Shown: in pieces, positions 18,227-26,306 of the stretch
How the letters are laid out: each line of letters starts with the position of its first letter
Position numbering within the stretch: the first letter of the stretch is position 1
Virus record (IMG/VR): IMGVR_UViG_3300030099_002804
Location: 1 to 61,030 of that record
Source: a virus
Length of the DNA: 61,030 nt
Strand: one strand, 5' to 3'
Notes under the pieces: model-generated
What the model saw: the letters and a program-made list of their open reading frames with translations, nothing else
Databases searched by the model: none
Told to the model about the DNA's origin: nothing
Position numbers and translations under genes: made by a program

Positions 18227-18342
18227 AAATTAGAGTGCCTACAAAGATTTGGTGCGCTTGGCTGGTCTTGACCCTGCCAATCGCCGTAATCAACCTACTG
18301 CTCTATATCACAGGTGTCGTGGAGGTCGGCAACTATAAATAG
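18223..18342 (+). CDS. 39-residue membrane peptide
   Basis: MKIRVPTKIWCAWLVLTLPI, then AVINLLLYITGVVEVGNYK: a positively charged N-terminus and one transmembrane helix. The last codons (NYK stop) are part of the next promoter's TATA box (ACTATAAATAG). ATGA overlap with the preceding gene. Possibly a small membrane-active protein. Confidence 0.65.
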   Translation: MKIRVPTKIWCAWLVLTLPIAVINLLLYITGVVEVGNYK

Positions 18343-18358
18343 GGGCGGCCCCATATAC
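18331..18358 (+). promoter_or_regulatory. internal promoter: TATAAATA with GGGGC-GGCCCC repeat
   Basis: CTATAAATAGGGGC then GGCCCCATATACAG: a near-consensus TATA box followed at once by an inverted GGGGC/GCCCC element, then ATATA. It overlaps the stop codon of the previous gene. Expected transcription start is about 18360, shortly before the ATG at 18386. Confidence 0.7.
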
Positions 18359-18385
18359 AGACTGAAGCAACCGGAGAGGAGCAAC

Positions 18386-18550
18386 ATGGAATACAACAGA
18401 AAAAACAACGGACAATTCGACACCCCACAAAAGGTGTCATACCAATGCGAAGAATGCAATCACCAGCATATCGGATTTGAAATACATGGAATGAGAATTA
18501 CATGCCCCGAGTGTGGGTTCTCATTTGTCGTGGGGGTTGACGACCAATAA
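18386..18550 (+). CDS. 54-residue zinc-ribbon protein
   Basis: MEYNRKNNGQFDTPQKVSYQ, then CEECNHQHIGFEI and ITCPECGFSFVVGVDDQ: two CxxC knuckles of a rubredoxin/zinc-ribbon type. GGAGAGGAGC precedes the ATG. First gene after its own promoter. Function unknown. Confidence 0.75.
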   Translation: MEYNRKNNGQFDTPQKVSYQCEECNHQHIGFEIHGMRITCPECGFSFVVGVDDQ

Positions 18551-23723: not shown

Positions 23724-23740
23724 GTTTGGAGAGGAACGAC

Positions 23741-24298
23741 ATGAACATATTTGTTTTAGATAAGAACCCAATACGAGCCGCACATTACTTAGACGATGTT
23801 AGAGTGCCTAAGATGTGCGTGGAAACCGCACAAATGATGGCATCAAGTCTGCGCCGACACGGTGCTACTGATGAGCAGATGCCACTAACACAGAAAGGCA
23901 CACCATACAAAGGCGGTTATCACAACCACCCTTGCACAGTATGGGCTGGCGAATCGCTGGATAACTTTGCTTGGCTGGCTACCCACGGTGCCGCCTTGTG
24001 TGCAGAATACAAAGTGCGCTTCGGTAAAGAACATGCGTGTGAAGGACCGATATGGCAAATGATTGAGTTGGCAGACCAGCATGTATTCTTGCCCGACATC
24101 GGCCTAACGCCATTCGCACAGGCTATGCCGGATGAGTACAAAGACGATGACGAGGTTGTAGCATACCGAAGATATTATCAATCTAAAGCCCATAGCAAGG
24201 GCGGAGTCCGGTACGACAAGAGTACCCACGGCTGGCCCGATTGGTGGGTCGTGGACACGGACTTTCTATACGGAGTAAAATACGAGGTGACAGAATGA
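23741..24298 (+). CDS. conserved phage protein, MNIFVLDKNP family
   Basis: 185 residues from the ATG after GGAGAGG. Begins MNIFVLDKNPIRAAHYLDDV, with KMCVETAQMMASSLR, YHNHPCTVWAGESLDNFAWL and GAALCAEYKVRFGKEHACEG. This is a widespread phage/virus protein whose usual form has a CDKHVVKM segment (here DDVRVPKM). I know of no established function; some annotations suggest DNA-repair links, which I cannot support. It is the only gene in this operon with clear relatives across tailed viruses. Confidence 0.75.
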   Translation: MNIFVLDKNPIRAAHYLDDVRVPKMCVETAQMMASSLRRHGATDEQMPLTQKGTPYKGGYHNHPCTVWAGESLDNFAWLATHGAALCAEYKVRFGKEHACEGPIWQMIELADQHVFLPDIGLTPFAQAMPDEYKDDDEVVAYRRYYQSKAHSKGGVRYDKSTHGWPDWWVVDTDFLYGVKYEVTE

Positions 24299-24516: not shown

Positions 24517-24791
24517 TGTCTAACAGGTTACATCGTGGTGGCTACATAAACAAGAAGGATAAACTGATTGAGTTTATCTGTCTTGAGTGCGAGACCTGTC
24601 ACAAGGTTGGTGCTATGGAGGGCTCTCTCAAGGAGATACCTAAAGACAAAGGCGTTCATTTGATGTTCGACCACAAACCAACCGTGATTTACTTCAAGGA
24701 AACTGAGGATGGGAAAAAGTATGAACCGTTGTGCAGACAATGTTCAGACAGGATTTCATTAGTCGTGGTGGAGAAGGCTCAGAAATGTTGA
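24513..24791 (+). CDS. 92-residue zinc-binding protein
   Basis: CLECETCHK at about residues 26-34 and CRQCSDR at about 78-84 make a treble-clef or zinc-ribbon layout with a 45-residue insert; this resembles HNH-like or LIM-like folds but lacks the catalytic His-Asn-His. ATGA overlap at the start. Its TGA is part of the next promoter's TATA region (TTGATATAG). Function unknown. Confidence 0.7.
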   Translation: MMSNRLHRGGYINKKDKLIEFICLECETCHKVGAMEGSLKEIPKDKGVHLMFDHKPTVIYFKETEDGKKYEPLCRQCSDRISLVVVEKAQKC

Positions 24792-24812
24792 TATAGTGGC
24801 GGGCATAAAGAA
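24790..24812 (+). promoter_or_regulatory. promoter, TATA-GTGGCGGG type
   Basis: GATATAGTGGCGGGCATAAA is nearly the same as the element at 33375 and as the late promoter at 10047 (minus). Expected transcription start is about 24819, exactly the first base of the RNA stem described next. Confidence 0.65.
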
Positions 24813-24818
24813 TAGAAT

Positions 24819-24914
24819 GGAGCAGGGTCGAGATTTTGTGTGTTTCTCCCATCTAATTTAGATGGTTCCTCAAGGTTGCTTGCTTCGTTCCTTTCCCTCG
24901 GCCCTGCCCCACTA
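24819..24914 (+). ncRNA. putative structured RNA with long closing stem
   Basis: The 5' end GGAGCAGGGTCGAG (24819-24832) pairs with CTCGGCCCTGCCCC (24897-24910): 13 of 14 positions, including one wobble. Inside lie GAGA...TCTC (24829-24848), a perfect CCATC-taattta-GATGG hairpin with a 7-base loop (about 24849-24865) and AAGG...CCTT (24873-24894). The layout is a multi-branched RNA of about 95 bases, cloverleaf-like. It lacks the tRNA T-loop GTTCRA sequence and a U before the anticodon position. No gene fits in the 158-base gap. An outer pairing TTGATATAGTGG / CCACTATTCAA also exists. Confidence 0.6.
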
Positions 24915-24949
24915 TTCAACAAGCAACCAATTACCGTAGGTGATATACT

Positions 24950-25255
24950 ATGAGAAGAAAACAATTACATATTTTTGCAGACAAGGTGGCGGCTATGCTT
25001 TTGGAGAACCCAAAGGGATTGTCGTCATACGAGATATACAATAGACTTGCTGACGATAGAAGCAACATGAGATGGCTACCAGCACGAAACACCATAGGCT
25101 CACGCCTGTCAAACATTATTGGTGTGGAACAGGTAGGCCAATCATTCGAGGCATTCCGGGCACACGACTTGGCTCCCGGCAGACAGGTTGTGTTATGGAG
25201 ATTAGACATAGAGCGATTCAATGAGTGGAGGTTTGGTAATGAGCCAACTCGGTGA
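24950..25255 (+). CDS. winged-helix-like DNA-binding protein
   Basis: 101 residues. MRRKQLHIFADKVAAMLLEN, then PKGLSSYEIYNRLADDRSNM with the helix-turn-helix core and a wing of the type SRLSNIIGVEQVG. Pattern shared with the small proteins at 28444, 30165 and 32002 (helix, xLSxxxIxxxL, then a short strand pair). Probably regulates virus genes or assists replication. AGGTGATA precedes the ATG. Confidence 0.65.
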   Translation: MRRKQLHIFADKVAAMLLENPKGLSSYEIYNRLADDRSNMRWLPARNTIGSRLSNIIGVEQVGQSFEAFRAHDLAPGRQVVLWRLDIERFNEWRFGNEPTR

Positions 25256-26021
25256 ACCATTAGTGGTGAATCTATCCGACATTGACTTTGTGACTACTAA
25301 GCCATACACTCGCAACGCTAGAGGCGAGTTAGTACAGATACCGTACATAGAGATTAAGGTCAACAAAAAGTTACCTAAGTTTATGATGATAGGCAAAGGT
25401 CTGATGTGGTCGTACTTAGATGCACTGTTTGAAGATGACCCGCTACCTAGAGGCCCGGTCAACGAGGACATATTCGCACCGAAGGTGGATGGTCCGTCAC
25501 TGTATTCGCTACTCAACTCATTTACCCAAGAGGTAAAGGATGAGGGAACAGACTACATTGTGATGTATCATAACGATTTTGTAGTCACATACTTTGAGTC
25601 ATTCAATGCCTCGGTGTTGTCGGACATCAATGTTTTGGCTGAGGGGCTGGCGCAACTGTGCCCAAAGCCTGTCGAAAAAAGACCATTCGTGTATAAGTCT
25701 AGTAAAGTTACCATTAGACCATCACTTATGATGCCTATTAACGGGTGCTTGCTCGAAGTAATTGACATCGGGCAACGCTGGTATTACCGACTGACCGCAC
25801 AGGCTGGCAATAATGTGCTTATATCGCTGATACAACCTACTACCACCAAGAAGAATGACAAGGGTGAAACATTTGCTAAACTACAATCGCTGATTGGTAT
25901 AGCATCAAGAGTGAATGTGTTGCATATTGACGGCCACCACTTAGGAACACCTATGACTAACAAGGGTATGAGGACTAATGAGATTGATGCGATTCTATAC
26001 AGAAGGGGGTTGACTATTTAA
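25239..26021 (+). CDS. 260-residue unknown protein
   Basis: Start at the ATG after GGAGGTTTGGTA, inside the end of the preceding gene. Mixed alpha/beta: LGEPLVVNLSDIDFVTTKPY, TDYIVMYHNDFVVTYFESFN, INGCLLEVIDIGQRWYYRLT. No catalytic or binding motif recognised. Located before the AT-rich candidate origin. Confidence 0.7.
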   Translation: MSQLGEPLVVNLSDIDFVTTKPYTRNARGELVQIPYIEIKVNKKLPKFMMIGKGLMWSYLDALFEDDPLPRGPVNEDIFAPKVDGPSLYSLLNSFTQEVKDEGTDYIVMYHNDFVVTYFESFNASVLSDINVLAEGLAQLCPKPVEKRPFVYKSSKVTIRPSLMMPINGCLLEVIDIGQRWYYRLTAQAGNNVLISLIQPTTTKKNDKGETFAKLQSLIGIASRVNVLHIDGHHLGTPMTNKGMRTNEIDAILYRRGLTI

Positions 26022-26280: not shown

Positions 26281-26306
26281 TTAAATACTGACGACGGATT
26301 AGTGAT
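26281..26306 (+). promoter_or_regulatory. promoter of replication operon
   Basis: GTTAAATACTGACGACGG: TATA-like TTAAATA about 26 bases before the ATG at 26311, predicting a leaderless mRNA. Similar to 39402 (ATATATACTGACGAAC). Confidence 0.6.

Follow-up and report, generated by a model that had tools for sequence, protein, structure and literature searches.

In phage T4, the gene 32 protein binds a pseudoknot in the leader of its own mRNA. This pseudoknot, 67 nt upstream, does not cover the Shine–Dalgarno sequence (SD) but serves to nucleate protein binding, and a 2010 review regarded the pseudoknot of T4-type gene 32 as possibly the sole viral example in translational autoregulation (PMC3014915). 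In the pseudoknot translational riboswitches for SAM/SAH and preQ1, a helix can mask the SD of the downstream gene (PMC7367207). The E. coli tisB mRNA, a bacterial toxin message, needs a pseudoknot together with 5'-end structure for standby translation, the activating standby site being about 100 nt upstream (PMC7708055). No structured regulatory leader was found for an archaeal virus in the literature searched, the coverage of which was incomplete and does not amount to proof of absence.

The element described here lies in a viral record analysed as one stretch of 61,030 nt (the window), which encodes a terminase, a family-B polymerase, a clamp loader, a portal and an ERCC4-type nuclease. These genes and a TATA-like promoter suggest an archaeal host, and the virus is probably an uncultured, marine, tailed virus of archaea. 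The element is predicted to be a 131-nt structured 5' leader of the p101–p266 mRNA (Table 1), built from a closing stem (P1), an inner hairpin (P2) and a pyrimidine-rich unpaired strand (J3).

Table 1. Features of the p101–p266 leader and its genes, with coordinates on the window.
Feature	Sequence	Coordinates	Strand	Remark
Promoter motif, TATA-like plus TGGCG	TGATATAGTGGCG	24789..24801	+	17 nt before the stem; aligned in relatives
Predicted transcription start	first G of P1	24819	+	predicted from promoter-motif phasing
P1 closing stem, 5' strand	GGAGCAGGGTCGAG	24819..24832	+	covariation, 18 leaders
P2 inner hairpin	CCATCTA-ATT-TAGATGG	24849..24865 (24849-24855/24859-24865)	+	sequence free to vary, pairing kept
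J3, pyrimidine-rich unpaired segment	TTCCTCAAGGTTGCTTGCTTCGTTCCTTTCC	24866..24896	+	nearly invariant in close relatives; CCTC anti-SD-like core
Loop side of proposed pseudoknot helix	GGTTGCTTG	24874..24882	+	complementary to 24920-24928
P1 closing stem, 3' strand	CTCGGCCCTGCCCC	24897..24910	+	covariation, 18 leaders
Tail side of proposed pseudoknot helix	CAAGCAACC	24920..24928	+	changes in relatives C to T opposite G, pair kept
SD of p101, at -11	GGTGAT	24939..24944	+	SD present in all 18 leaders
p101, 101-aa winged-helix protein (predicted fold)		24950..25255	+	immediately follows the leader in all relatives
p266		25221..26021	+	overlaps p101; N-terminal half weakly OB-fold/RPA-like, Z about 5

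Relatives were drawn from tblastn-confirmed IMG/VR contigs carrying either the neighbouring 454-aa protein or the 101-aa protein behind the element, which gave 17 syntenic leaders and, with the window, a sample of 18 in eight sequence groups, the grouping being drawn by eye: A (L001, which is the window, L036, L003 and L004), B (L020, L005 and L007), C (L014), D (L011, L009 and L032), E (L018, L052, L016 and L021), F (L010), G (L019) and H (L012). The element occurs as one copy per genome, and no further convincing copy was found, either in the window or in related loci where none was known, by a search model that itself missed L012; a weak match on the minus strand of the window (18342-18426, E 1.2) is at chance level. 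Scanning viral contigs for three core sequences as DNA patterns returned only relatives already in the set, a scan of genome contigs yielded no relative of p101, and phage records held no match to the locus, p101 or the 454-aa protein. Ahead of the most distant p101 homologue stands a shorter possible version of the element (L022:3049-3124), with a GGGCAC/GTGCCC stem and an inner hairpin TGCCAC/GTGGCA followed by GCCA and GGAGG.

P1 is a real conserved RNA stem. The 14-position stem that a first-pass annotation of this DNA had drawn around 24819-24910 stands, with 13 pairs and one A.C, and the 92-nt RNA that it closes folds with -33.2 kcal/mol against -21.4 for shuffled sequences (z -3.95; 0 of 200 shuffles as good). 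A stem of 10-15 bp, very GC-rich, occupies the same place in every relative, flanked upstream by the promoter motif and downstream by the start codon of the p101 homologue, and its sequence diverges widely, as in GGGGAGGGGG/CCCCCTCCCC, GGGAGCAGGTG/CACCTGCTCCC and GGGGTTGTCTCGGGC/GCCCGAGGCGGCCCC. The covariation check in relatives that the annotation had proposed found compensatory changes across the 18 leaders: RNAalifold recovered the stem unprompted, with compensatory change in 5 of 8 tested pairs; 95.6% of P1 cells are paired, compared with 79.4% after shuffling; double-change cells number 24 as against 6.7; and the covariation score of 0.485 (shuffled 0.165) was reached by none of 500 shuffles, slid controls giving far lower values. 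Since G-U pairs, which outnumber A-C by 18 to 2 across the leaders, would become mismatches on the minus strand, the conserved molecule is the plus-strand RNA. The same ratio, together with start-site phasing and a spacer that varies from 41 to 77 nt, speaks against a DNA element, either a replication origin or an operator inverted repeat, which is highly improbable even though the repeat is intergenic and near replication genes and the modelled winged helix of p101 could bind DNA.

The position of P1 is tied to the promoter. The TATA element that had been reported as shared with genes 33404 and 10032(-) is indeed common to them and also precedes genes 26311, 37151 and 39434. Defined by the pattern [AT][AT][AG][AT]A[CG]TG[GCA]CG, it stops precisely 17 nt short of the ATG in genes 26311, 37151, 39434 and 10032(-) and 14 nt short of the start of gene 33404, which suggests that the other motif-bearing genes of the virus yield leaderless transcripts. 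The virus-wide form, a TATA-like stretch followed by STGNCG, stands at 26283, 33379, 37123, 39406 and 10060(-). Across all loci, 149 distinct motif matches are followed by long, GC-rich anchored stems at offsets 15-20 and 23-27, with peaks at 17 and 24(-25) and almost none elsewhere within 0-60 nt after the motif; the spread to adjoining offsets reflects the same stems counted from neighbouring start bases. The motif-to-stem distance is 24 nt in groups D and E and 17 nt otherwise, and the promoter is clearly phased in 17 of the 18 leaders, being weak in L012. The extra 7 nt, which begin at the predicted +1, read ACAACA(A/T/C) in L011, L009, L032, L018, L052, L016 and L021, a conserved stretch absent in most other groups. 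A transcription start at the first base of P1, as anticipated at about 24819, or 7 nt earlier in two groups, is thus a well-supported prediction from motif phasing and covariation.

Inside P1, the earlier picture changes. Of the three smaller stems proposed, one, P2, is real and conserved in kind, and the other inner arms are not conserved; the hairpin described as having a perfect 5-bp stem and a loop of 7 bases does exist, seen there in truncated form, P2 having 7 bp and a 3-nt loop. Pairing in P2 is kept through CCATCTA/TAGATGG, CTCGTC/GACGGG and CCTGTCTAA/TTAGACAGG within the window's group, and through GTTGC/GCAAT and GTTAC/GTAAC in another. The only other perfect inner stem, the 4-bp CAAG/CTTG, is not kept outside the window's own group. 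The fold is therefore a clamp with one hairpin and not a cloverleaf, and the tRNA-like outline falls away: ARAGORN returned 0 tRNAs in the window, P1 measures 10-15 bp as against the 7-bp acceptor arm, and there is no set of D, anticodon and T arms by which a tRNA or tmRNA could be read. The suggested comparison with known RNA families gave no match in the window above threshold and nothing above chance at two thresholds, the best weak match being carA (13.4 bits, with 100 required), and the P1–P2–J3 leader family is absent from Rfam. Inspection by eye recognised no k-turn in P1, P2 or the junctions, and lent no support to an H/ACA or C/D guide reading; a major-groove triplex formed by J3 on the G-rich strand of P1, likewise considered by eye, is a hypothetical arrangement. 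Straight after P1, 14 of the 18 leaders, excluding the window's group (24911-24914), carry RCC, the sole tRNA-like trait that persists, which resembles a tRNA discriminator base followed by CC(A); alternatively, this trinucleotide may pair with GG in the loop.

What follows the stem bears on whether the RNA is independent. In 18 of 18 leaders the start codon of the same gene lies 17-42 nt behind the stem and an SD stands at -9 to -13; no conserved terminator was found among them, the tail T-run being short and not conserved. With the SD and the p101 start always behind the stem and no conserved U-run, the element is read as a 5' mRNA leader, so that the dedicated RNA of about 95 nt proposed in the first-pass annotation is not sustained. 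Features expected of a cis-regulatory leader are present, namely a conserved structure whose compensatory changes fall on the coding strand, placed close to the promoter and directly before the SD and start of one gene family. It is quite unlikely that a trans-acting RNA of about 95 nt is processed off the transcript at the base of P1, for example at RCC(A/T): its own promoter, the compact fold and the purine-C-C in 14 of 18 leaders would fit, but the invariable position before one gene's SD, the missing conserved terminator, the lack of a tRNA or Rfam match, the single copy per genome and a loop complementary to its own tail all run counter to it. The element had also been placed at the junction between a small-gene operon and the replication operon, which is roughly right as to position, but the leader belongs to the gene pair p101–p266, the next gene having its own promoter motif at 26283. 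The upstream small-gene operon includes a protein (23726-24298) that has a pyrimidine-dimer DNA glycosylase domain (Pfam PF03013, E 1e-8).

The tail between P1 and the start codon holds a feature that had been missed: in the window, CAAGCAACC is the perfect complement of GGTTGCTTG in J3. Comparable loop/tail pairs occur elsewhere, namely CCTCAAACTTGG/CCAACTTTGAGG in L020, CTCCTTTTGTGTTTGGG/CCTAAACACAGGAGG in L011, CTCCGTTTAGTTGCTTGG/CCATTGAGCAACAACGGAG in L018, TCCTCCT/AGGAGGA in L014 and ACCTCCT/AGGAGGT in L019, and J3 is complementary to the SD-carrying tail in six of the eight groups, L010 and L012 having no significant loop-tail pairing with J3. The limits of P2, and with them those of J3, were fixed by hand ahead of the complementarity test; shuffle p values per leader range from 0.0003 to 0.18 apart from these two, the pairing in L019, L004 and L021 not being significant taken singly. 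Fisher combination over eight group representatives gave 7e-6 with the tail shuffled and 1e-6 with J3 shuffled, and a second, weaker representative set gave 2e-4 and 3e-5, respectively. Tails swapped between groups produced a worse total in 94-99% of permutations (p 0.026, 0.009 and 0.059 in three sets), a harder test with an only moderate result, because CCTCC pairs with any SD. Changes within groups mostly keep pairs, as in CAAGCAACC to CAAGCAATC/ATT opposite GGTTGCTTG, GTTGCTT to GTTGCTC opposite GAGCAAC, and G.U to G-C in L052; group B trades one pair for another, and two pairs are lost in L021.

The tail helix covers the SD in most groups and, in the window's group, lies beside it, 10 nt upstream. 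As P1 stands between both strands of the helix, the pairing makes a pseudoknot if P1 stays and a switch if P1 opens; nested folding of groups D and most of E (not L021) prefers an SD-sequestering tail hairpin over P1, and these leaders may have two competing states. The loop-tail complementarity thus points to a pseudoknot, or a switch, that would hinder the entry of ribosomes. The competing folds, lying straight after the start site, would also suit a transcription-level leader in which P1 and the tail hairpin would alternate, working by attenuation or by antitermination of the put kind; neither fold is followed by a conserved U-run, however, and the conserved downstream feature is the SD, which leaves this explanation very unlikely. 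A 5'-terminal stem could instead protect the mRNA or form a ribosome standby site that promotes p101, with the loop-tail pairing as part of the scaffold. P1 begins no more than 7 nt from the predicted 5' end and is GC-rich, and the tisB requirements cited above also fit this view, which is nevertheless unlikely; simple protection leaves the conserved J3 sequence and its complement over the SD unexplained.

The reading that we favour, with reasonable but limited confidence, is a structured p101–p266 leader in which the loop-tail helix would bar ribosomes from p101 as long as it stays closed. Transcription would start at the first base of P1, or 7 nt earlier in two groups; P1 would clamp a domain holding P2 and J3; and part of J3 would pair with the tail that leads from P1 to the start codon, the resulting helix masking or crowding the SD either together with P1, as a pseudoknot, or in competition with it, as a switch. 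A factor would open or stabilise the helix, p101 being released by a protein, by ribosome binding or by another signal. The conserved stem and its strand, the phased start, the leader position and the complementarity of loop and tail are observed; helix formation in the cell, repression of translation and its release are what we infer, and translational control of p101 is the most likely function. A metabolite riboswitch finds no invariant ligand-binding core, only 3-5 columns being invariant among the 18 leaders in an alignment that is imperfect in its inner part, and for this reason a protein or the ribosome is the likelier partner than a metabolite.

The predicted structure of p101 is a winged helix (pLDDT 78), whose best structural matches, at Z about 8, are PadR, forkhead, LOTUS and a marine putative nucleic-acid-binding protein, and BFVD contains a viral protein identical to it. 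The N-terminal half of p266 aligns, weakly, with OB folds of the RPA/Teb1/Pot1 type, and p266 is possibly a viral single-stranded-DNA-binding protein; neither protein has relatives in the PDB by sequence. An autogenous operator, in which the RPA-like OB fold of p266 or the winged helix of p101 would bind the pyrimidine-rich loop in the leader of its own mRNA, thereby locking or opening the pseudoknot, is unlikely, and would, if true, be the first known member of a family of viral leader RNAs.

Like the archaeal L7Ae/k-turn leaders (PMC5539422), the leader would put archaeal translation under the control of a structured part of the mRNA, although by eye it has no k-turn. With the standby pseudoknot of tisB it would share 5'-end structure, a pseudoknot and a sequestered ribosome site (PMC7708055). 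The masking helix recalls the SAM/SAH and preQ1 switches, whereas the leaders described here lack an invariant ligand-pocket core across groups and match no Rfam family, the SAM-SAH model scoring 11 bits where 40 are required, and that mostly over promoter sequence. The family itself combines strong covariation with a tie to the predicted start, in marine viruses whose motif-bearing genes otherwise look leaderless, and the RNA is short (131 nt) and carries a paired-mutant prediction that can be examined in a reporter without cultured virus or host. As in T4 gene 32 (PMC3014915), a pseudoknot, here proposed, stands close to the 5' end in a viral mRNA leader, ahead of replication-related genes, and the arrangement recalls that system because p266, if a single-strand-binding protein, would match the gene 32 product. 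The likeness is at most an analogy, the gene pair here being a winged helix with a weakly RPA/OB-like protein: sequence and architecture differ, with a long clamp, an inner hairpin and a loop-tail helix that reaches the SD, the virus probably infects archaea, and autogenous control is a candidate reading. If that reading is true, this virus, probably one of archaea, would have evolved independently a counterpart to the control of gene 32 in T4.
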